Shown: positions 52,322-64,000 of the stretch, one piece after another
Position numbering within the stretch: the stretch's first letter is position 1
How the letters are laid out: each line of letters opens with the position of its first letter
NCBI GenBank assembly: GCA_002839805.1
Contig: PGYT01000008.1
Span: 1 to 64,000 of the forward strand
Source of the DNA: Ignavibacteriae bacterium HGW-Ignavibacteriae-2
GTDB lineage: Bacteria; Bacteroidota; Ignavibacteria; Ignavibacteriales; Melioribacteraceae
Direction: 5' to 3'
Length of the DNA stretch: 64,000 nucleotides
Made by a program: the position numbers and the translations under genes
Notes under the pieces: model-generated
Databases searched by the model: none
What the model saw: the letters and a program-made list of their open reading frames with translations, nothing else
Told to the model about the DNA's origin: nothing

Positions 52322-53695
52322 ATGGATGTAGAAATATTAGCACGTCTTCAATTTGCGTTCACAATAGCTTTCCATTATATCTATCCGCCTTTAAGCATTG
52401 GACTTGGAGTGCTGCTTGTTGTAATGGAAGGTATGTATTTAAAAACCGGAAACAAAGAATACGAAAGGATGACCAAATTTTGGGTTAAAGTTTTTGCATT
52501 AATTTTTGCAATTGGTGTTGCTACCGGTATAGTTATGGAATTTGAGTTCGGAACCAATTGGGCGACTTACTCCAGGTACGTAGGTGATATTTTTGGCAGT
52601 GCTTTGGCGGCTGAAGGAATATTTGCTTTTTTTCTTGAATCCGGTTTTCTCGCAATTTTAGTTTTCGGATGGAACAAAGTTTCTCCAAAAATTCATTTTC
52701 TTTCCACAATAATGGTCTCCTTTGGCTCAATGCTAAGTGCCGTTTGGATTGTAGTGGCAAATTCGTGGCAGCAGACTCCTGCCGGATATCACATTGTTGG
52801 CGAAGGTTTAAATGCACGGGCGGAAATTACTGACTTCTGGCAAATGGTTTTTAATCCTTCTTCAATGGAAAGATTATCTCACGTACTTTCGGGAGCCTGG
52901 TTAGCCGGAGCCTTTTTTGTGCTTAGTGTCAGCGCTTACTATATAATTAAAAATCGCCATGTGGAAATTTCAAAGAAAGCAGTTAAAATTGCTCTTTCAT
53001 TAGCAATATTCGCCTCACTTTTTCAGTTGTTTACAGGGCATAAAAGTGCAGTTGGAATTAGTGAAAATCAACCGGCAAAACTTGCTGCTTTTGAAGCTCA
53101 TTATGATTCCTCTGCACCGGGAACTTTGTATTTATTTGGCTGGGTAAATGAGGATAAACAAGAAGTTAACTTTGGAATTGGCTTGCCTGGATTTTTAAGC
53201 TATTTAATTTACGGGGATTTTAACACTCCGGTAAAAGGATTGAATTCATTTCCCGAGGATCAACGACCGCCGGTAAATATTGTGTTTCAGACATATCATA
53301 TGATGGTTGCTATTGGAATGGGGCTTATTGGCATAAGTTTATTTGGAGCATTTTTATGGTGGCGCGGAAAATTGTTCGATTATAAATGGTATTTGTACAT
53401 TCTAATGTTTTCTGTTTTGCTTCCTCAAATCGCAAATCAAATAGGTTGGGTTTCTGCTGAAGTTGGAAGACAGCCATGGATTGTTTATGGTTTATTACGC
53501 ACATCGGATGCCCTCTCTAAAACGGTTGATGCTAATCAGATTTTGTTTTCTTTGATACTCTTTATAATTATTTATTTGTTGTTATTTGTTCTGTTTATTT
53601 TTCTGTTAAACGAAAAAATCAAACATGGACCTGATGATTCGGATGATACATCATCTGAATACGCGCACTCAAAACAACTTTTTTCAACAAACTAA
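52322..53695 (+). CDS. cydA: Cytochrome bd oxidase subunit I
   Basis: Haem-bearing subunit of the high-affinity quinol oxidase that works at low oxygen. Haem ligands His18 (IAFHYIYPPLSIG) and His187 (RLSHVLSGAWL) are present, as are the conserved ENQPAKLAAFE and GRQPWIVYGLLRT segments. At 457 residues it has the short quinol loop form. About nine membrane helices are seen. It starts a plus-strand operon with cydB 11 bases after it. Confidence 0.97.
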   Translation: MDVEILARLQFAFTIAFHYIYPPLSIGLGVLLVVMEGMYLKTGNKEYERMTKFWVKVFALIFAIGVATGIVMEFEFGTNWATYSRYVGDIFGSALAAEGIFAFFLESGFLAILVFGWNKVSPKIHFLSTIMVSFGSMLSAVWIVVANSWQQTPAGYHIVGEGLNARAEITDFWQMVFNPSSMERLSHVLSGAWLAGAFFVLSVSAYYIIKNRHVEISKKAVKIALSLAIFASLFQLFTGHKSAVGISENQPAKLAAFEAHYDSSAPGTLYLFGWVNEDKQEVNFGIGLPGFLSYLIYGDFNTPVKGLNSFPEDQRPPVNIVFQTYHMMVAIGMGLIGISLFGAFLWWRGKLFDYKWYLYILMFSVLLPQIANQIGWVSAEVGRQPWIVYGLLRTSDALSKTVDANQILFSLILFIIIYLLLFVLFIFLLNEKIKHGPDDSDDTSSEYAHSKQLFSTN

Positions 53696-53706
53696 TAGTA
53701 GCGAAA

Positions 53707-54735
53707 ATGGAATTCACATTCGATTTAAATACAATTTGGTTTATACTTATCGGAGTTTTACTAACTGGTTATGCTTTCCTCGATGGTTTCGATCTGGGAG
53801 TTGGCGCGATTCATCTTTTTATTAAAGGTGATAACAATCGCAGAATTTCAATAAATGCAATTGGTCCGGTTTGGGATGGAAATGAAGTTTGGCTCGTAAC
53901 CGGCGGCGGAGCCTTGTTTGCGGCATTCCCTCATGTTTACGCTACGGTTTTCTCAGGATTTTATAATGCTTTTATGCTTCTCATTTTTATGCTTATTTTT
54001 CGTGCTGTCGCTATAGAATTTAGAAGTAAACAACCGATGCAGTGGTGGCGAAATATGTGGGATAGGGCGTTCAGCATTTCGAGTATATTAATCGCTTTTT
54101 TAATGGGAGTTTCAATCGGTAATATTATTACAGGTGTACCAATTGGACCTGACAAAGAATTTGCAGGTACGTTTCTCGGAATGTTAACTCCTTACACTAT
54201 TATGGTTGGAATTACAACTGTGGCTCTGTTTATGATGCACGGCTCGATTTATCTTACTATGAAAACCGAGGGTGATTTGCACGAGACCATTAGAACCTGG
54301 GTAAATAATGCGATAATATTTTTTGTGATAATGTATACAACAACTACCATGGCGACACTTATTTATTACCCAAATATGACAAAACATTTTGTGGAAAATC
54401 CGGGATTATTTATTATAGCAATCTTGAATATGCTAGCGATAGCCAATATACCAAGAGTGATTCAGCGCAGAAAAGATTTTTTTGCTTTCCTCTCCTCGGG
54501 CGCAGTAATAGCATCTCTGCTTGTTTTATTCGCAATAGGTATATTTCCAAATTTGGTTTTATCAAATCCAAATCCGGAATATAGTTTAAATATATACAAC
54601 GCCGCTTCTTCGCAAAAAACTTTGCAGATAATGCTAACCATTGCAATGATAGGAGTGCCGTTTGTCCTCGCATATACAGTAAGCATATATTGGGTGTTCA
54701 GAGGAAAAGTAAAAATAGATTCTTCAAGTTATTAG
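53707..54735 (+). CDS. cydB: Cytochrome bd oxidase subunit II
   Basis: 342-residue partner of CydA with about eight membrane helices and the family start WFILIGVLLTGYAFLDGFDL, then GPVWDGNEVWLVTGGGALFA. It is needed for assembly and stability of the oxidase. No small CydX-like gene is apparent in the 14-base gap to the next gene, and no cydCD is nearby. Confidence 0.97.
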   Translation: MEFTFDLNTIWFILIGVLLTGYAFLDGFDLGVGAIHLFIKGDNNRRISINAIGPVWDGNEVWLVTGGGALFAAFPHVYATVFSGFYNAFMLLIFMLIFRAVAIEFRSKQPMQWWRNMWDRAFSISSILIAFLMGVSIGNIITGVPIGPDKEFAGTFLGMLTPYTIMVGITTVALFMMHGSIYLTMKTEGDLHETIRTWVNNAIIFFVIMYTTTTMATLIYYPNMTKHFVENPGLFIIAILNMLAIANIPRVIQRRKDFFAFLSSGAVIASLLVLFAIGIFPNLVLSNPNPEYSLNIYNAASSQKTLQIMLTIAMIGVPFVLAYTVSIYWVFRGKVKIDSSSY

Positions 54736-54749
54736 TTGATATATAAGAA

Positions 54750-55397
54750 ATGAATAAATTGTTAAAAAAAGCTCTACTGCTCAGCTTAATTACTATAGTA
54801 TATAATTTGGCTGAAGGTGTCGTTTCAGTATTTTTTGGATTGGAGGATGAAACACTTGCTCTCTTCGGGTTCGGTGCCGATAGTTTTGTGGAAGTGCTAT
54901 CCGGAATAGGAATTTTACATTTGGTATTACGGATGCGTCATTCAAAAGTTGAAATGCGTGATGAGTTTGAAAAAACTGCTCTACGTATAACTGGATTCAG
55001 TTTTTATCTTTTATCGGTTGGACTTGTTTTAGGTGCGTTAATAAATATTATTAATGACTCTGTACCCGAAACGACAATTGTGGGTGTTATAATTTCTTCA
55101 ATATCCCTGCTGACAATGTATTTTCTGATGAATAGTAAATTAAAAGTTGGCAAAGAATTAAATTCCGACGCAATAATAGCTGATGCGAATTGTACTAAAA
55201 CATGTTTCTACTTATCATTTCTTTTGCTCGCTTCAAGTGTATTGTACGAAATTTTTCATATCGGTTATATTGATTCCATTGGATCTCTGGGCATCGCTTA
55301 TTTCGCATTTAATGAAGGCCGTGAAGCTTTTGAAAAAGTAAAAACAGGAAAATTATCCTGCGCCTGTGATGATCACTGCGAATCTAAAACTATTTAG
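54750..55397 (+). CDS. CDF-like cation transporter, membrane domain only
   Basis: A 215-residue protein with about six helices resembling the membrane part of cation diffusion facilitators (LSLITIVYNLAEGVVSVFFG, FGFGADSFVEVLSGIGILHL, and the Asp-containing DAIIADANCTKTCFYLSFLL). It lacks the usual C-terminal cytoplasmic domain and ends with a short metal-binding-like tail rich in Cys and His (CACDDHCESK). Substrate is unknown; heavy-metal or iron export is possible. It follows cydB by 14 bases. Confidence 0.75.
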   Translation: MNKLLKKALLLSLITIVYNLAEGVVSVFFGLEDETLALFGFGADSFVEVLSGIGILHLVLRMRHSKVEMRDEFEKTALRITGFSFYLLSVGLVLGALINIINDSVPETTIVGVIISSISLLTMYFLMNSKLKVGKELNSDAIIADANCTKTCFYLSFLLLASSVLYEIFHIGYIDSIGSLGIAYFAFNEGREAFEKVKTGKLSCACDDHCESKTI

Positions 55398-55524
55398 TGG
55401 CTATACTATCTCTTGCCATAATTCAATTAACTAATTAATAACATTTTTTATTGCTATAAACTATTGGAATATTGACGAACTTCAGTTAACATTTCCTCTT
55501 TAATTTTTTCTATTTCTTACATTT

Positions 55525-57246
55525 ATGGGCTTTATCATGTTTAAACCAAAGTTATTTATAATGTTCAAAGATATTACTCGCAAACAATTTTTTACTGATT
55601 TGGTAGCAGGGGTTTTGGTTGGTATTGTCGCTTTACCTCTGGCAATAGCGTTTGGCATTGCCTCGGGCGTTACTCCGGAAAAAGGAATAATTACAGCGAT
55701 TATCGGAGGATTTATAGTATCCTTCCTTGGAGGTAGCCGTGTTCAAATAGGGGGACCCACCGGTGCTTTTATTGTAATCGTTTATGGAATTGTACAACAG
55801 TACGGTGTTAATGGATTAATGATTGCAACTCTAATGGCCGGGGTAATTCTTATAATTATGGGATTCGCCCAGTTTGGTTCTATGATTAAATTTATTCCAT
55901 ATCCAGTTGTAGTCGGATTTACAAGTGGCATTGCGGTAGTAATTTTTTCAAGTCAGATAAATGATTTCTTCGGTTTATCGATAGATAAAGTACCTGCGGA
56001 TTTTACAGAGAAATGGATAGTATACTTTAAGAATTATAGCACTGTTCATTTGGAAACGTTCTTTATAGGAATGTTATCTCTCTTAATTATAATTTTTTGG
56101 CCGAAAATCTCTCGAAAAATCCCGGGGTCGATAATAGCTATTTTAGTCGCAACTTTTATCGTCCAGTTTTTTCAATTAGATGTGGATACAATTGAATCAC
56201 GATTCGGATCAATCCCTTCCTCTTTTCCATCCCCTTCATTACCGAATATGGATTTGGCTACTATAAGAAATTTAATTTTACCAGCGACTACTATAGCTAT
56301 ACTGGCGGCTATAGAAGCTTTGCTTTCAGCGGTTGTATCAGACGGTATGATAGGCGGGAAACACAGATCAAATATGGAATTAGTTGCGCAGGGAGTCGCC
56401 AATATTTTTTCACCTTTATTCGGTGGAATTCCTGTAACAGGGGCAATAGCCCGAACTGCAACAAATATTAAAAACGGCGGAAGAACACCCATTGCTGGGA
56501 TTGTACACGCTATTACATTGCTTGCAATTATGCTTGCGCTAGGACAATGGGCTAAATTGATTCCTATGGCAACATTAGCAGCGGTGCTTATTATTGTGGC
56601 CTTTAACATGAGTGAATATAAAGTATTCAAACAGTTGTTAAAAAGTCCGCGAAGTGATTTAATTGTTTTGTTAACTACATTCGGATTGACTGTAATTTTT
56701 GATTTAACAATTGCGATAGAAATTGGAATGGTATTGGCAGTAATTTTATTTATGCGAAGAATGTCAATGGTTACCAATATTGGAATAATTACTCAAGAAA
56801 TTAAGGACAAAGATGAAGTTGAAGATCCCAATTCTATCAACTCAAGGTCAGTGCCTGATAATGTAGAAGTTTATGAAATAAATGGACCATTTTTCTTTGG
56901 CGCGGCAACCAAATTTAAAGAAGCAATGAGTACAATAGAGAATCCGCCGAAAGTACTTATTTTAAGAATGCGCAGTGTGCCCGCAATAGATGCGACCGGT
57001 TTAAATTTATTTAGGGAGCTGGTGCATAACTGCCGAAGAGATGGAACACATTTAATTTTATCCGGTGTCCACGCTCAACCACTTTTCGCATTTACGCAAT
57101 ACGGACTTTTGGATGAAATTGGAGAGGAATATATATTCGGAAATATTGATGATTCACTTGATAAAGCAAGAGAACTACTTGGTCTACCAAAAAAAGGAAG
57201 ACCGGGAGATTTTGTTCCTGTTGTTAAACGCGAAATGAAACAATAA
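55525..57246 (+). CDS. SulP-family anion transporter with STAS domain
   Basis: A 573-residue SLC26/SulP transporter: about 10-12 membrane helices ([30 protein letters not shown]-like [33 protein letters not shown]) and a C-terminal STAS domain (about 455-560, [20 protein letters not shown]). Members carry sulfate, bicarbonate or dicarboxylates; none can be chosen here. The start is uncertain: ATGs occur at codons 1, 5 and 13. It is 127 bases after the CDF-like gene. Confidence 0.9.
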
Positions 57247-57526: not shown

Positions 57527-60007
57527 ATGGGATTGATTAAAAAATATTTCGATTGGCTTCAAAAAGACACTCCTTCTGGGCTCGTAGAAAAATATCCCGC
57601 AATTGATAAAAATGGCGAAACTTCCGTAAAAGGAATCTATATTATCGGGGACCTTACAGGTATACCTCTACTAAAGATTGCAGCCGAAAGCGGGAAAAAA
57701 ATAATTGATCACCTTAGCCGAAACGAGCAATTTCTCAAATTGCGCAATAATACTAACCACAATGATGTAAAGGATATAATTATTGTTGGTGCGGGTCCCG
57801 CGGGTATCGCCGCCGGGATTGAATCTCTTAAATATGGATATAAATTCAATATCCTTGAAGCTGCGAAAAAATTTAACACAATAATTAATTTTCCCAAAGC
57901 CAAACCGATTTTAGCCGAACCCATTGAATATAAACAAGAATCGAAGTTAATAATTAAAGATGGAATTAAAGAATCTTTACTCGAGGATCTAAACTCACAA
58001 ATCAAAAAATTTGAACTTCCTATTCAGGAAAATACTGTTGTTGAAAGAATTGAAAAGAAAGAGGATCATTTTGTTATAAGCACTTCTGAAAATGAATATA
58101 AAGCCCTGGTTGTAATTTTGGCAATCGGTAAATCCGGAAACTTCAGGCAGTTAAATGTAAAAGGTGAAACCCTGCCCAAAGTTTTTAACAGATTAATAGA
58201 TCCCGCTGAAGCCATCGGACATAAAGTTTTAATAGTTGGAGGTGGTGACAGCGCTCTTGAAACAGCTATTGCAGTTTCGGATTATGCAGAGTCTGTAACA
58301 ATTTCCTACAGAAAAGATCAGTTTTCCAGAGCAAAAGAAAAAAATCTGAATGAAATAAATTCGCTAAACGTAAAAGGTAAAGTAAAATTACTTTTTAATT
58401 CAAATATAAAAGAAGTTACAGAATCGACCGTTATACTTTCCCAAAATGGGAAAGATATTTCTATTAAAAATTCTCTCGTTTATACAATGATTGGAAAAGA
58501 ATTGCCCACTGATTTTTTAAGGCGCAGCAAAATTAAAATGGAAGGTGAATTATCTATTACTGCAAAACTACAATTTTTACTTCTGATACTTATCGCTGGG
58601 ATAATATATTTCGGAAAAAGTAGTGCCGATTTTTACTCTTATCTGTTCGGGAAAACCGCTTCATGGAACGATATTATTAGCAGGAGTTTATCATTAGAAT
58701 TTTGGATCAAATTTTTAGCGCTGCCGTTAGAGATAATTGATATTATTTTCTCAGATAAATTAGAATTATGGAACTCAGTAAAATATATTAACGGGCTTGT
58801 TGCCTATTTTTCGTTTTTTGCAGCTGTAATACTTGGGATTTATCTTCTTTTAAAATTTATTAAAGATAATAAGCGTCAGTTTAAAACGGACTGGAATACA
58901 TTCAAACATTTATACTTTATTGGCATTGCAATATTTTTTGCGGTAATATTTTTTGGCGGAAGATATTTTGGCATTCAGCTATTGGGTAAGTCTCAATCTT
59001 TTTTTTATACGGGATTATACTCCTTAACTATTTTAATTTTTGGACTACGCCGTATTAAAGTAAACCCAACCAGATATATTAGAATTCAAACCTGGACTCT
59101 AATTTTAATACAGGTTTTTCCTTTATTTATTCTACCTGAATTTATTTTCCCGATGCTTGGTAATGCGGGATTATTAGGTGGAAAAGAAGGATTTATTTTA
59201 ACACAGGTTTTTCCAGGAAACAGTTACTGGCGTTCCTACGGCTTTATACTTGCCTGGCCGTTATTTTTCAGCAATCTTTATGGATCAAATATCACTTCGT
59301 TTTGGCTGGTGTTTAGTTTTTTTCAAACATTCATTATAATTCCATATATAGTTTACCGCTGGGGTAAAGGTGCATATTGCGGATGGATTTGTTCATGCGG
59401 CGCATTAGCTGAAACACTGGGAGATGAATACCGAACATTGGCCATACACGGACCAAAAGCGAAAAAGTTAGAGAATTTAGGTCAGTGGATATTACTTGCT
59501 GCATTTTTAATTACGGGACTAAAACTTGTTAGCATCCTCTATAATGTTTCTGTTCCTATATTAAACGAAAGTATATCTTTAACTGCTGATTTTTTTCAAA
59601 AGTTTTATTACATAGGTATTGATGTTGTTTTTGCAGGCGTGTTGGGTGTTGGTGTATACTTCTTTTTAAGTGGCAGAGTCTGGTGCAGATTCGGATGTCC
59701 GCTTGCCGCTTGGATGCATATTGTAAACAGGTTTTCTCGTTACAGAATATTTGCGGATAAGAAGAAATGTATTTCATGTAACATCTGTACAAAAGTTTGC
59801 CATATGGGAATTGATGTAATGAACTATGCCAATAAAGGAATTCCAATGAACGATATTCAATGTGTTAGATGTTCAGCTTGTATAATAAATTGTCCTACAG
59901 AAGTTTTGAAATTTGGCAGTCTGCCTAATAATGATACTGCAAATAAATTATATACTAAAATTGAAGTGACTGGTTTAGATAAACAGAAATGGACCTCCGG
60001 ACTATAA
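57527..60007 (+). CDS. Membrane flavo-iron-sulfur protein: permuted NAD(P)H/FAD oxidoreductase fused to a NapH/NosR-like polyferredoxin
   Basis: An 826-residue fusion. Residues 1-65 contain a GD motif (KGIYIIGDLTG, 35-45) that normally closes the FAD domain of thioredoxin-reductase-like enzymes. The FAD loop GAGPAG is at 88-93 and the NAD(P) loop GGGDSALE at 238-245. The domain then ends near residue 345 and runs directly into membrane helices, without its own C-terminal GD segment. So the order looks circularly permuted. After about six helices come CGWICSCG (618-625), CRFGC (720-724) and two [4Fe-4S] motifs (748-758, 779-789). It should pass electrons from NAD(P)H through the membrane; the acceptor is unknown. 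The arsenosugar-type genes follow one base later. Confidence 0.85.
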   Translation: MGLIKKYFDWLQKDTPSGLVEKYPAIDKNGETSVKGIYIIGDLTGIPLLKIAAESGKKIIDHLSRNEQFLKLRNNTNHNDVKDIIIVGAGPAGIAAGIESLKYGYKFNILEAAKKFNTIINFPKAKPILAEPIEYKQESKLIIKDGIKESLLEDLNSQIKKFELPIQENTVVERIEKKEDHFVISTSENEYKALVVILAIGKSGNFRQLNVKGETLPKVFNRLIDPAEAIGHKVLIVGGGDSALETAIAVSDYAESVTISYRKDQFSRAKEKNLNEINSLNVKGKVKLLFNSNIKEVTESTVILSQNGKDISIKNSLVYTMIGKELPTDFLRRSKIKMEGELSITAKLQFLLLILIAGIIYFGKSSADFYSYLFGKTASWNDIISRSLSLEFWIKFLALPLEIIDIIFSDKLELWNSVKYINGLVAYFSFFAAVILGIYLLLKFIKDNKRQFKTDWNTFKHLYFIGIAIFFAVIFFGGRYFGIQLLGKSQSFFYTGLYSLTILIFGLRRIKVNPTRYIRIQTWTLILIQVFPLFILPEFIFPMLGNAGLLGGKEGFILTQVFPGNSYWRSYGFILAWPLFFSNLYGSNITSFWLVFSFFQTFIIIPYIVYRWGKGAYCGWICSCGALAETLGDEYRTLAIHGPKAKKLENLGQWILLAAFLITGLKLVSILYNVSVPILNESISLTADFFQKFYYIGIDVVFAGVLGVGVYFFLSGRVWCRFGCPLAAWMHIVNRFSRYRIFADKKKCISCNICTKVCHMGIDVMNYANKGIPMNDIQCVRCSACIINCPTEVLKFGSLPNNDTANKLYTKIEVTGLDKQKWTSGL

Positions 60008-60008
60008 A

Positions 60009-61403
60009 ATGACAGCGATGGGAAAATCAAATATTAAATATTCTATAATAATTCCAACTTTCAACGAAGAATTATTTATTGGAAAAAACATCGCCATACT
60101 AAATGAAATTAAACCAGCTTGTGAAATAATTATCTCCGACGGAGGGAGTACAGATAATACTTTAGAAATTTGCGAAAATTTTGATGTTAAAATTCTCCAT
60201 TCTAATCGCGGACGCGGTGAGCAGTTAAATGAGGGCGCAAAACATGCCTCAGGTGAAATTCTTATATTTTTACACGCGGACAGTTTTTTTTCCGAAAACT
60301 GTTTTGACCAATTAAACATTTTTTTTGAAAGTCCGGAAAATAAAATATGCAGGTTTCTGTTGTTATTTGATATTGATCATTGGATACTTAATACATATCA
60401 CTATTTCTCAAAATTTGATTCCATGTTCACAAGATTTGGGGATTCAAGCATTTGTGTTAGAAAAGATTTTTTTAATTCGCTTAATGGATTTCCCAATTGG
60501 AATTTTATGGAGGATGTTCATTTTTTGAGAGAGGCAAATAAGCTTACTAAAATTGCTGTGTTGCCAGGTTACGTTGAGTCCTCCGCGCGAACATTTACAA
60601 AAAACGGATTAATTAAACAGCAAGTTTCAAGCGGTTTTATGCTGATTAAATATATTCTAGGATTTAGAAAATTTATTTACGAGAATAGCTATTACACAAA
60701 ACAAGTGAATACTAATCGGGCATCTGTAATACTTTTTACAAGATTCCCGACGGAGGGAAAAGTAAAGACAAGGTTGGCCTCAACAGTTGGAAATTATTAT
60801 GCAGCTCTATTTTACAAAATAATTGCTAAAAAAATTATTTCTGATGTTAAATTAGTAAAAAATATATATCAGTATATTTTTTATTCTGAGAAAACTGAAA
60901 GGAATAAAATTAAGAATTGGCTCGGTAGGAATTTCTTTTATCACAACCAAGTGGGCGATGATCTTGGTGAACGAATGAAATTCGCATTCGAAAAAGTTTT
61001 TAGTCACGGTGCGCAAAAAGTTATTATAGTAGGTACCGATATTCCGGAAATTTCGAAACGGGTAATTGAAAATGCAATAGATTTACTTGATACGAATGAT
61101 ACTGTAATTGGCCCTTCTAAAGACGGTGGGTTTTACCTTCTGGGTATGAAAAAATATTATCCCGCATTATTTGATGGAATAAAATATAGTACCGACAGCG
61201 TATTTTCAAAAACAATTGAAAAATCAAAAGGATTGAATCTTAAATTAAGCTTACTACCTGAATTAATGGATATTGATACTGAATCAGATTTAATATCATG
61301 GATCAACTCAGCAGATAACTCGAAGATAAAAAAAGAAGTCGAATTAATTTATAATCTTACTAAAGGAAAGGTAAAAACAAGATGCGCTCATTGTCCGCAA
61401 TAA
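60009..61403 (+). CDS. Fused arsenosugar-type glycosyltransferase (TIGR04283 + DUF2064/TIGR04282)
   Basis: A 464-residue protein joining two families usually encoded separately. Residues 1-225 are a GT2-like domain (IIIPTFNEELFIGKNIAI, SDGGSTDNT, HADSFF metal site near 89-92). Residues 235-440 match DUF2064 nucleotidyl-/glycosyltransferase-like enzymes (ILFTRFPTEGKVKTRLAST, VGTDIPEI, GPSKDGGFYLLGM). Both are recurrent partners of ArsS and are named for arsenosugar biosynthesis, but their exact reactions are not established. It starts one base after the flavo-iron-sulfur gene and overlaps the DUF547 gene by 22 bases. Confidence 0.85.
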   Translation: MTAMGKSNIKYSIIIPTFNEELFIGKNIAILNEIKPACEIIISDGGSTDNTLEICENFDVKILHSNRGRGEQLNEGAKHASGEILIFLHADSFFSENCFDQLNIFFESPENKICRFLLLFDIDHWILNTYHYFSKFDSMFTRFGDSSICVRKDFFNSLNGFPNWNFMEDVHFLREANKLTKIAVLPGYVESSARTFTKNGLIKQQVSSGFMLIKYILGFRKFIYENSYYTKQVNTNRASVILFTRFPTEGKVKTRLASTVGNYYAALFYKIIAKKIISDVKLVKNIYQYIFYSEKTERNKIKNWLGRNFFYHNQVGDDLGERMKFAFEKVFSHGAQKVIIVGTDIPEISKRVIENAIDLLDTNDTVIGPSKDGGFYLLGMKKYYPALFDGIKYSTDSVFSKTIEKSKGLNLKLSLLPELMDIDTESDLISWINSADNSKIKKEVELIYNLTKGKVKTRCAHCPQ

Positions 61404-62146
61404 TGCTTTTAATAATTCTTTATTTTCAGCCGGCAAATGCTCAACAACACAAATTGTTCAGCTCCGTTCTACAAGATTGTGTTTTTAATGGGTTAGTTGA
61501 TTATGATAAATTAAAAAATGATGTTCGTCTTGATGCTTATCTTCATCAGCTTAATAAGACTAATCCGGAAACATTAACGCGTGAAGAACAACTTTCTTTT
61601 TGGATTAATGCCTACAATTCTTTTACACTTAAAGCCATAGTTGATAACTACCCGGTAAAAAGTATAAACGATTTGCATACCGGCGGATTAATTTTGGGGA
61701 GTTTGTTAAAAACAACAATTTGGGATGATGATTTTATTACTATAAATAGTAATAGATATTCATTAAACGATATAGAACATAATATTCTTAGGGAAATATT
61801 TGAAGAACCAAGAATACATTTTGCTATTGTTTGCGCGTCAATAAGCTGCCCGCCGCTGCGAAATGAAGCTTTTGAGGCAAATATTATTAACGAACAACTA
61901 AATGACCAGGCAATATTATTCTTGAATGATGCTTCCAGAAACTTCTTCGATTTAAAAGAAAGAACAGCTCACCTTTCTAAAATATTCGATTGGTTTGATG
62001 AAGACTTTGGGGATTCCGATAAAAAAGTGATGCTTTATATATCCAAGTTTCTTCCCGATGCGATTAAAAAATCAATTTTACGCGAACCGCAAAACTGGAA
62101 TATTAAGTACAAAAGTTATAACTGGAATTTGAATAAAATTAATTAA
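61382..62146 (+). CDS. DUF547 secreted protein
   Basis: A 254-residue protein with a signal peptide (ending PANAQ, about residue 21). It carries the DUF547 signature: WINAYNSFTLKAIVDNYPV, FAIVCASISCPPLRNEAF and DWFDEDFGD. The family often contains a conserved Cys in ASISCPP, seen here. Function is unknown. Although exported, it is translationally overlapped with the glycosyltransferase gene and recurs beside arsenosugar-type genes in other bacteria to my recollection, so a pathway link is inferred. Confidence 0.85.
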   Translation: MRSLSAIMLLIILYFQPANAQQHKLFSSVLQDCVFNGLVDYDKLKNDVRLDAYLHQLNKTNPETLTREEQLSFWINAYNSFTLKAIVDNYPVKSINDLHTGGLILGSLLKTTIWDDDFITINSNRYSLNDIEHNILREIFEEPRIHFAIVCASISCPPLRNEAFEANIINEQLNDQAILFLNDASRNFFDLKERTAHLSKIFDWFDEDFGDSDKKVMLYISKFLPDAIKKSILREPQNWNIKYKSYNWNLNKIN

Positions 62147-62157
62147 AGGAGCTAAAT

Positions 62158-62490
62158 ATGAATTATTATGAATCCAAAGATCTAGGTCGTTTTGCTGAGG
62201 TTGGAAAATTTAAGCCCGATTTAATGAAAAAATTTTTTGACTATTATAATGCGGCCACAAATACCGATGGAGCGCTATCTAAAAGAGAAAAAGCTTTAAT
62301 AGCTTTGGCAATTTCACATTTCAAACAATGCCCTTACTGTATTGAGGCATACACAACTGCGTCTTTAGAAAGCGGAGCTAACCCCGATCAGATGACCGAA
62401 GCCATACATGTTGCGGCATCGATGGCTGCGGGAATGAATTTGGTACATGGTGTTCAAATGCTTAATATATTGGAAAAAAGTGGTGTGTAA
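62158..62490 (+). CDS. Arsenosugar-associated peroxidase-like CMD/AhpD protein
   Basis: A 110-residue carboxymuconolactone-decarboxylase-fold protein. KREKALIALAISHFKQCPYC contains the redox pair Cys-x-x-Cys (CPYC), followed by IEAYTTASLESGANPDQM and a small-residue helix (HVAASMAAGMNLVHGVQML). The family member next to ArsS is described as arsenosugar biosynthesis-associated and peroxidase-like; a thiol redox role on arsenic or sulfur intermediates is inferred. AAAGGAG precedes its start. Confidence 0.88.
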   Translation: MNYYESKDLGRFAEVGKFKPDLMKKFFDYYNAATNTDGALSKREKALIALAISHFKQCPYCIEAYTTASLESGANPDQMTEAIHVAASMAAGMNLVHGVQMLNILEKSGV

Positions 62491-62523
62491 TCTCCCACAA
62501 TTACATTTAGGAAAGGATTTATA

Positions 62524-63534
62524 ATGAGAGACAACAATTCAGCAATTATTCAAAACGGGAAATATAATTTTCAAGAGAAATTAACTAAAAATTCATTAAG
62601 CCTCCCCCCCTCTTCTATTGAAACTTTACAGGTAAATATAACTCTTAAATGTAACCAGGCCTGTTTACATTGCCATGTGGATTCATCACCAAAACGAACG
62701 GAGCAGATGGAAAAAATCACCGTGGATAAATGCCTTGAAATACTTTCGAATCATAAGGAAATTAAAAATATTGATATCACCGGAGGTGCACCCGAACTTA
62801 ATCCGCATTTTGACTATCTTGTTATAGAAGCGAAAAAGTTGGACAAACACGTAATGGTAAGACACAATTTAACCATTACAATCGATGGCGATCCCACTAC
62901 AGGAGAATCAAAAAAATATTTGCCTGAATTTTATTCTAAGCATTCGGTGGAAGTTATCTCTTCTTTACCTTATTATCAGGAATATTTCACGGATAAGCAG
63001 CGTGGACGAGGTGTGTTTAATAAAAGCATAGATTCATTAAAATTATTAAATGACCAAGGTTACGGCAACGAAAACTCCGATCTAAAACTTGATTTGGTTT
63101 ATAATCCAGCAGGTGCTTTTCTCCCGGCATCTCAGCAATCATTAGAGCAGGATTTTAAAAAAGAATTATGGGAAAAATTCGGACTTAAGTTTAATAACCT
63201 ATACACCATTACTAATATGCCAATTCATAGATTTAGAGAGCAATTGGAAAGACTTGGCAATTATGATGAATATATGGAAAAACTAATAAATGCTTTTAAT
63301 CCCACAGCGGCAAATGGAGTTATGTGCAGGTCATTGTTAAGTGTAAGTTACGACGGCAAATTATTTGATTGTGATTTTAATCAGATGCTGGGAATGCAAA
63401 TATATAATATAGAACCAATGACTGTTTTTAATTTTGATATTGATTTATTATTAAAAAGAAAAATCCGCTTCGATTCACATTGTTTTGGATGCACGGCCGG
63501 CAATGGCAGCAGTTGCGGCGGAGCTACAGTTTAA
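62524..63534 (+). CDS. arsS: Arsenosugar biosynthesis radical SAM enzyme ArsS
   Basis: A 336-residue radical SAM protein. The [4Fe-4S]-SAM motif CNQACLHC (43-50) follows VNITLK and is followed by VDSSPKRTEQM, as in ArsS. IDITGGAPELNPHFD is the SAM-binding GGAPE region. The C-terminal part carries CRSLLSVSYDGKLFDCDFNQ and the Cys-rich end CFGCTAGNGSSCGG, likely for auxiliary iron-sulfur binding. ArsS joins a 5'-deoxyadenosyl unit to dimethylarsenite; the methyltransferase ArsM that should make this substrate is not in the window. AGGAAAGGA precedes the ATG. Confidence 0.92.
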   Translation: MRDNNSAIIQNGKYNFQEKLTKNSLSLPPSSIETLQVNITLKCNQACLHCHVDSSPKRTEQMEKITVDKCLEILSNHKEIKNIDITGGAPELNPHFDYLVIEAKKLDKHVMVRHNLTITIDGDPTTGESKKYLPEFYSKHSVEVISSLPYYQEYFTDKQRGRGVFNKSIDSLKLLNDQGYGNENSDLKLDLVYNPAGAFLPASQQSLEQDFKKELWEKFGLKFNNLYTITNMPIHRFREQLERLGNYDEYMEKLINAFNPTAANGVMCRSLLSVSYDGKLFDCDFNQMLGMQIYNIEPMTVFNFDIDLLLKRKIRFDSHCFGCTAGNGSSCGGATV

Positions 63535-63544
63535 GGTAAAATTT

Positions 63545-64000
63545 ATGATAGAAAACTCTAAAATCGCGGTAATAATTCCCGCGTTTAACGAACAGGAATC
63601 AATTGTACATGTGATAAATCACATTCCACCTTTCGCGGATGAGATTATAGTAGTAAATAACGGTTCCACCGATAACACTAAAACTGTTGCCGAAAAATGT
63701 GGCGCTACCGTTCTTGATGAAATGGATAAAGGATACGGTGCCGCCTGTTTAAAGGGTATTGAATACCTTAAAGGAAAAAGTTACGATATTATTGTTTTCC
63801 TCGATGGTGATTACAGTGATTATCCCGAAGAAATGAGTGCGATAGTTGACCCCATTATCAATCAAAATTTTGATTTGGTAATAGGCTCAAGGATGATTGG
63901 AAAGCGCGCCAAAGGATCGATGCTTCCACAAGCTATGTTCGGTAACTGGTTATCTGCGTTGTTAATAAAACTATTTTGGAATTACTCCTTTACAGACCTG
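63545..64000 (+). CDS. GT2-family glycosyltransferase, N-terminal part (cut by window end)
   Basis: The first 152 codons are open to the window end. The sequence shows IAVIIPAFNEQESIVHVI, NNGSTDN, LDGDYSDYPEE (DxD-type metal site) and IGSRMIGKRAKGSM, typical of dolichyl-phosphate-glucose/mannose-like GT2 enzymes. It starts 10 bases after arsS and is probably the next member of that operon, possibly a further step on the sugar or lipid side of the pathway. Confidence 0.85.
   Translation, partial: MIENSKIAVIIPAFNEQESIVHVINHIPPFADEIIVVNNGSTDNTKTVAEKCGATVLDEMDKGYGAACLKGIEYLKGKSYDIIVFLDGDYSDYPEEMSAIVDPIINQNFDLVIGSRMIGKRAKGSMLPQAMFGNWLSALLIKLFWNYSFTDL

Follow-up and report, generated by a model that had tools for sequence, protein, structure and literature searches.

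A stretch of 64,000 nucleotides from Ignavibacteriae bacterium HGW-Ignavibacteriae-2 (Bacteroidota, Ignavibacteriales; contig PGYT01000008.1, positions 1 to 64,000), here called the window, carries at its right end a set of genes that includes arsS, for a radical S-adenosylmethionine (SAM) enzyme, and is led by a gene for a membrane redox protein. The set is probably a six-gene arsenosugar operon whose lead protein passes electrons from NAD(P)H to the pathway, that is to ArsS and/or to oxidised methylarsenicals. The evidence points to an operon core of the ordinary arsenosugar type, with the redox protein as the new, testable component and a candidate for an unnamed part of the pathway. The operon consists of the following genes (lengths in amino acids, aa):

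57527 to 60007, + strand: membrane redox protein, lead gene of the operon, 826 aa
60009 to 61403, + strand: fused arsenosugar glycosyltransferase, 464 aa, with a GT2 part (TIGR04283, aa 12-221) and a CofC-like nucleotidyltransferase-type part (TIGR04282, aa 240-428)
61382 to 62146, + strand: DUF547 protein, 254 aa, with a signal-peptide-like N-terminus
62158 to 62490, + strand: AhpD-like arsenosugar-associated peroxidase-like protein (TIGR04169), 110 aa, with CPYC at 58-61
62524 to 63534, + strand: ArsS, radical SAM enzyme (TIGR04167), 336 aa, with CxxxCxxC at 43-50 and the C-terminus CTAGNGSSCGGATV
63545 to 64000 and on to contig position 64240 (read in L005), + strand: AglJ-like GT2 glycosyltransferase, below all curated cut-offs

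An earlier note on this DNA had described five genes separated by at most 33 bases, and all five open reading frames (ORFs) were indeed found on the + strand at 57527-63534, with spacings of +1, -22, +11 and +33 bases. Its assignment to an arsenosugar-type operon with a member of the ArsS family was borne out by the NCBIfam profiles. The fused glycosyltransferase reached 198.4 bits with TIGR04283 (cut-off 182) and 200.8 bits with TIGR04282 (cut-off 134), the AhpD-like protein 157.1 bits with TIGR04169 (cut-off 120) and ArsS 426.1 bits with TIGR04167 (equivalog cut-off 300). The radical SAM motif of ArsS is formed by C43, C47 and C50, and its cysteine-bearing C-terminus is shared with other ArsS proteins. 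The fused glycosyltransferase also matched 3cgx, a putative nucleotide-diphospho-sugar transferase, in the PDB (1.3e-36). The DUF547 product scored 103.8 bits with PF04784 of Pfam (cut-off 27). Its residues N76, Y78, N79, E132, H146, C151 and C156 are invariant across 11 rows, and the invariance of H146, C151 and C156 suggests a cysteine-based site. The AlphaFold model of this protein was confident (predicted local distance difference test score, pLDDT, 90.3); no solved structure resembled it convincingly, as the best Foldseek match in the PDB had an E of 1.6 and the VIA rows all had Z below 5. The note had ended the operon at 63534. The five genes stand, but the end point lies one gene early, as the AglJ-like gene begins 10 bases past arsS and is conserved in each of the four relatives with the operon. 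This gene, whose product resembles polyprenyl-phosphate sugar transferases, belongs to the operon, which has six genes.

The claim that a membrane redox protein leads the operon also held. The 826-aa product appears to be a flavo-iron-sulfur protein of three parts. Residues 21-68 and 83-340 would form a circularly permuted domain for flavin adenine dinucleotide (FAD) and NAD(P)H of the YpdA/thioredoxin reductase (TrxR) type, an extra transmembrane part extends over approximately 345-590, and a NapH-like part over approximately 590-800. The last part contains the motifs CxxxCxC (618-624) and CxxxC (720-724) and two ferredoxin-type four-cysteine clusters (748-758 and 779-789). The protein has 13 cysteines, all within the NapH-like part (the first at residue 618), and none of them varies across 45 rows. 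The redox-active cysteine pair of thioredoxin reductase (TIGR01292) was not found, and because residues 1-350 have no cysteine, the flavin part cannot use a cysteine pair as TrxR does. The protein scored above no NCBIfam cut-off; the best were YpdA (TIGR04018; 141.7 bits against 339.9) and NapH (TIGR02163; 61.3 against 213). An AlphaFold model built with 45 rows had a mean pLDDT of 75.5 and was good for most of 80-345 and for the membrane part. Residues 79-340 of the model aligned to YpdA 7a7b (Z 21.6, 257 aligned residues, root-mean-square deviation 8.8, 27% identity), and structure comparison also aligned the flavin part to other TrxR-like enzymes and to ferredoxin-NADP reductases.

The circular permutation is supported by aligning the redox protein directly with a YpdA-like protein of 324 aa from the same genome. 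Residues 21-68 aligned to the very end of the YpdA-like protein (271-324) with a score of 52, against 27 +/- 4.2 for shuffled sequences, of which 0/500 reached the score. By this alignment, the segment that ends the FAD domain of ordinary members appears to have been moved to the N-terminus of the redox protein. When a permuted copy and the natural order were searched against the PDB, the best match was 7a7b, reaching chain residue 265 and 262, respectively, and the match was not longer. The same order of flavin segments was seen in standalone Bacteroidota proteins of about 430-550 aa (L218-L228; 11 of 12 loci examined), where the flavin module is preceded at the N-terminus by at least about 110 aa. 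The standalone protein of L220 matches the NapH/ferredoxin profile there.

A two-row profile of the redox protein was scanned against one genome per species (84,980 species). This gave 56 loci, in Ignavibacteriota, Bacteroidota, Aminicenantes, Acidobacteriota, Myxococcota, Verrucomicrobiota, Planctomycetota, Latescibacterota and other groups; in 55 of them the match covered a large part of the protein. The comparison of synteny proposed in the earlier note showed that the operon recurs in L126 (the contig of family member L042), L127, L129 and L132. The glycosyltransferase of L132 consists of the CofC-like half alone, without GT2, and L129 has one gene more. Recurrence of the gene order in four further genomes excludes chance, and the redox gene keeps the lead position in all five operons, the window's included. 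Other layouts were found in Verrucomicrobiota. In L152 (Akkermansiaceae), ArsS, an MTAP-type gene, ArsM and CofC are divergent from the redox gene and two glycosyltransferase genes. The order in L202 is DUF547, ArsS, ArsM, redox, PNP-like (purine nucleoside phosphorylase) and CofC, and in L201 it is ArsS, a 311-aa gene, DUF547, a 126-aa gene, redox, glycosyltransferase, GT2 and an ArsM relative, with CofC divergent. The redox protein is not a peculiarity of the window's lineage, and its tie to arsenosugar genes extends to a second phylum. Elsewhere in the family, a 335-aa gene of L184 (genome G055) matches both the CofC-like and the AhpD-like profiles, as a fusion, shortly after a redox-AglJ pair; on a contig other than L184's, G055 has ArsS beside a DUF547 gene.

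We then asked how often the redox protein and ArsS occur in the same genome, counting as full-length members those with more than 1000 bits to a 45-protein redox profile. In the window's order, ArsS was present in 5/5 carriers and in 1/22 other genomes (p 7e-5; 3e-4 without the window's genome). Three of these five carriers (G062, G136, G220) have the two genes on different contigs. The 194 Verrucomicrobiota genomes gave a similar picture, with ArsS in 5/6 carriers and in 8/188 others (p 3e-6). Leaving out the genome at the centre of the search, known beforehand to have both genes, gave p 4e-5. When two distant 590-bit matches without ArsS were added, the counts became 5/8 and 8/186 (p 3e-5; 3e-4 without the centre). 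In two of the five verrucomicrobial carriers with ArsS, the redox gene and ArsS lie near each other (L201, L202).

Several observations weigh against a dedicated role in the arsenosugar pathway. The Fisher p-values overstate the association, because genomes within a group are related and were treated as independent. Over the 296 genomes of the phylum, co-occurrence was weak (ArsS in 7/10 carriers and in 113/286 others; p 0.056, and 0.10 without the window's genome), and the three ArsS-free carriers belong to one genus. Of the 120 phylum genomes with ArsS, 113 have no redox fusion, which shows that ArsS does not require it. Only 5 of 53 redox loci have ArsS within six genes, so that most carriers show no adjacency; these counts cover flanks of up to 10 kb, many of them cut by contig ends. 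Finally, the ferredoxin end of the AlphaFold model was poor, with pLDDT mostly below 60.

Alternatively, the redox protein may be a membrane module for NAD(P)H-linked electron transfer in general, caught in the operon by chance and serving respiration or another pathway. The three ArsS-free carriers of one genus fit this view. Of the 56 redox loci, 48 had their genomes searched for ArsS (L156, L170, L172, L174, L175, L177, L179 and L180 are outside this count). ArsS was above the cut-off in 30/48 and not in 18/48, two of which had fragments. The Verrucomicrobiota also include ArsS-free carriers, namely G434 and, as distant 590-bit matches, G389 and G469, and the redox gene often adjoins DUF547 or AglJ-like genes with no ArsS in the fetched flank. 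We nevertheless regard a general module as rather unlikely. It does not account well for the lead position conserved in five operons, for the redox gene standing next to arsS and arsM, in more than one arrangement, in a second phylum, or for ArsS in carrier genomes even when it lies on another contig. In addition, a tree of 55 redox proteins requires at least four changes of ArsS adjacency on well-supported branches.

The neighbours of the 53 redox loci bear on a second alternative. Within six genes we found DUF547 in 10, AglJ-like genes in 8, GT2 and CofC-like genes in 6 each, AhpD-like genes in 4 and an ArsM relative in 3. The redox protein might act on the product side, in the reduction, assembly or export of an arsenosugar lipid, together with the DUF547 protein and the AglJ-like transferase at the membrane. 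The DUF547 and AglJ-like neighbours fit this idea, as does the membrane location of the redox protein. The same is true of L203 and L205, which hold DUF547-redox-glycosyltransferase-GT2 blocks without ArsS in the fetched stretch, while their genomes (G391 and G382) have ArsS on another contig. On the other hand, the assembly of arsenosugar lipids is not known to include a reductive step. In our judgement a product-side role has a fairly small chance of being correct, and electron supply to ArsS and/or to methylarsenicals remains the reading we prefer.

TIGR04167 was above the cut-off in 120 of the 296 phylum genomes searched. We examined 81 ArsS neighbourhoods (80 from the 119 further genomes, and the window) and counted 79, as ArsS was not recovered by ORF calling in L102 and L119. 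An AhpD-like gene directly before ArsS was present in 60/79 loci. CofC-like genes were found in 42, GT2 in 32, an ArsM relative in 19, DUF547 in 14, PNP in 10, NapH-like genes in 8, FAD oxidoreductases in 7 and AglJ-like genes in 6. The full redox fusion was found in two (the window and L042). The FAD genes, in L047, L049, L050, L053, L058, L078 and L100, resemble NirB and CoA-disulfide reductase. A NapH-like gene stands beside the FAD gene in six of these loci by profile; in L050, where ORF calling missed the gene, the position of a NapH match places it there. The clusters of L058 and L100 also hold PNP, an ArsM relative and an AglJ-like gene, and the ArsM of L058 reaches NF038099 (568.6 bits). 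The window's fusion thus has a counterpart of two genes, based on another flavoprotein. Flavin-NapH combinations of two distinct designs occur in ArsS clusters, which suggests that the combination, and not a particular protein, is what is needed. Most ArsS neighbourhoods contain neither form, which indicates that other donors can serve.

A broader proposal, possible though still doubtful, is that this unnamed family of permuted flavoprotein-polyferredoxin membrane fusions serves specifically to supply NAD(P)H electrons to bacterial arsenosugar synthesis in two or more phylum-level groups, and that in other Bacteroidota it is replaced by the two-gene pair of FAD oxidoreductase and NapH-like protein. 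If true, the fusion family would count as a physiological electron source for a radical SAM enzyme that acts on arsenic.

The earlier note had reported ArsM as missing from the window, and we found none there. It had proposed to look for ArsM and PNP genes right of 64000; none was present up to the contig end at 67618 (3.6 kb), where the AglJ-like gene is followed by two genes, of 445 and 507 aa, the first of which reads as a membrane transporter gene. Upstream of the operon, at 52322-57246, lie two genes that resemble those for cytochrome bd-type subunits, a gene for a CDF-like membrane protein (below cut-off) and one for a SulP-type transporter. These are 280 bases from the operon and were not counted as members.

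From the missing ArsM it had been supposed that the pathway may differ or use another arsenic or related substrate. A different substrate was not supported: contig C39 of the genome carries a canonical ArsM (318.7 bits, cut-off 263), with an ArsR-like gene directly before it. No gene of the genome reached NF038099, the ArsM model specific for arsenosugar synthesis; the best score, 112.3 against 400, came from the arsM on C39 itself. Two other contigs, C128 and C130, encode PNP relatives, the one on C128 with 49% identity to the L058 PNP. An ArsM-family match at E<=1e-30 was present in 26/27 genomes sampled from the window's order, so the operon need not contain an arsM of its own. An ArsM-family gene does lie inside the orthologous operon of L129, between the redox gene and the glycosyltransferase gene, and another directly after the redox gene of L125, at the contig end (185.7 and 205.2 bits to NF008823, respectively, below the cut-off of 263). 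In L042, an ArsM reaching NF038099 (548.2 bits) lies about 6 kb downstream of the operon.

The note had also considered that homologues of these genes might never co-occur with arsM. The 19 ArsS neighbourhoods with an ArsM relative speak against this; the other 60 had none in the fetched stretch. Over the phylum, ArsM was found in 75/120 genomes with ArsS and in 89/176 others (p 0.03), which says little because ArsM is common. An operon for an element or substrate other than arsenic, which the lack of ArsM in the window and over the remaining 3.6 kb of the contig would favour, was rejected as very improbable in view of the ArsM on C39, the ArsM-family gene inside the orthologous operon and an ArsS score far above the equivalog cut-off. 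Since the genome and nearly all sampled genomes of the order have an ArsM-family match, a local arsM is not required for the call, and an arsenic pathway for the operon is supported by these comparisons.

ArsS is described as adenosylating arsenic (PMC12159101) and as working together with ArsM (PMC8552651). In the pathway that we propose, ArsM, encoded elsewhere beside the arsR-like gene, would methylate arsenite to dimethylarsenite. ArsS is predicted from the chemistry of its family to join dimethylarsenite to the 5'-deoxyadenosyl part of SAM, and a purine nucleoside phosphorylase encoded elsewhere could free the arsenoribose as its 1-phosphate. Judging from the protein families, the CofC-like half would turn arsenoribose-1-phosphate into an activated nucleotide sugar, from which the GT2 half, perhaps with the AglJ-like GT2, would transfer the sugar to glycerol or a lipid carrier. 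The AhpD-like CPYC protein may hold or reduce trivalent methylarsenicals. The redox protein would pass electrons from NAD(P)H through FAD and the [4Fe-4S] clusters to the pathway, the most likely acceptor being the cluster of ArsS. Alternatively or in addition, it might keep methylarsenicals trivalent together with the AhpD-like dithiol protein. The sequence comparisons establish the genes, how they are conserved, the domains of the redox protein and its linkage to ArsS and ArsM, both locally and across genomes; the direction of electron flow, the acceptor and the product are as we infer them.

To our knowledge, and within the accessible literature, enzymes of bacterial arsenosugar synthesis have been assigned only for the first steps (ArsM and ArsS). 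Among the titles and abstracts listed by searches of open-licence PMC papers, none described a redox protein of this kind in an arsenosugar cluster. The link of ArsS to a membrane electron donor across phyla, with DUF547 and AglJ-like genes nearby, provides candidates for missing steps, namely electron supply, glycosyl activation and glycosyl transfer, which can be tested by gene removal and arsenic speciation.

The closest known system is the arsenosugar pathway of cyanobacteria with the ArsM and ArsS of Synechocystis, reportedly described by Xue in 2019 and Cheng in 2021. As in that pathway, the window has an ArsS above the equivalog cut-off and its genome an ArsM, and NCBI names the families of the window's glycosyltransferase and AhpD-like protein after the arsenosugar pathway. 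In contrast to it, the operon adds the membrane flavo-iron-sulfur fusion, the DUF547 protein and the AglJ-like glycosyltransferase, and arsM is unlinked. The redox protein resembles YpdA/bacillithiol disulfide reductase and TrxR-like ferredoxin-NADP reductases in the alignment of residues 79-340 to 7a7b. However, it is permuted, cysteine-free in its flavin part, fused to a membrane part and below the YpdA cut-off. With the membrane polyferredoxins of the NapH/MauN/NosR type it shares a match to TIGR02163 at residues 608-796, two four-cysteine clusters and CxxxC pairs, whereas its score lies below the cut-off (61.3 against 213 bits) and, in the same chain, a flavin domain and an additional membrane part precede the match. 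The verrucomicrobial cluster L202 consists of the same kinds of parts, a redox homologue included, but has arsM and a PNP-like gene in place, the redox gene in mid-cluster and no AhpD-like gene by profile.

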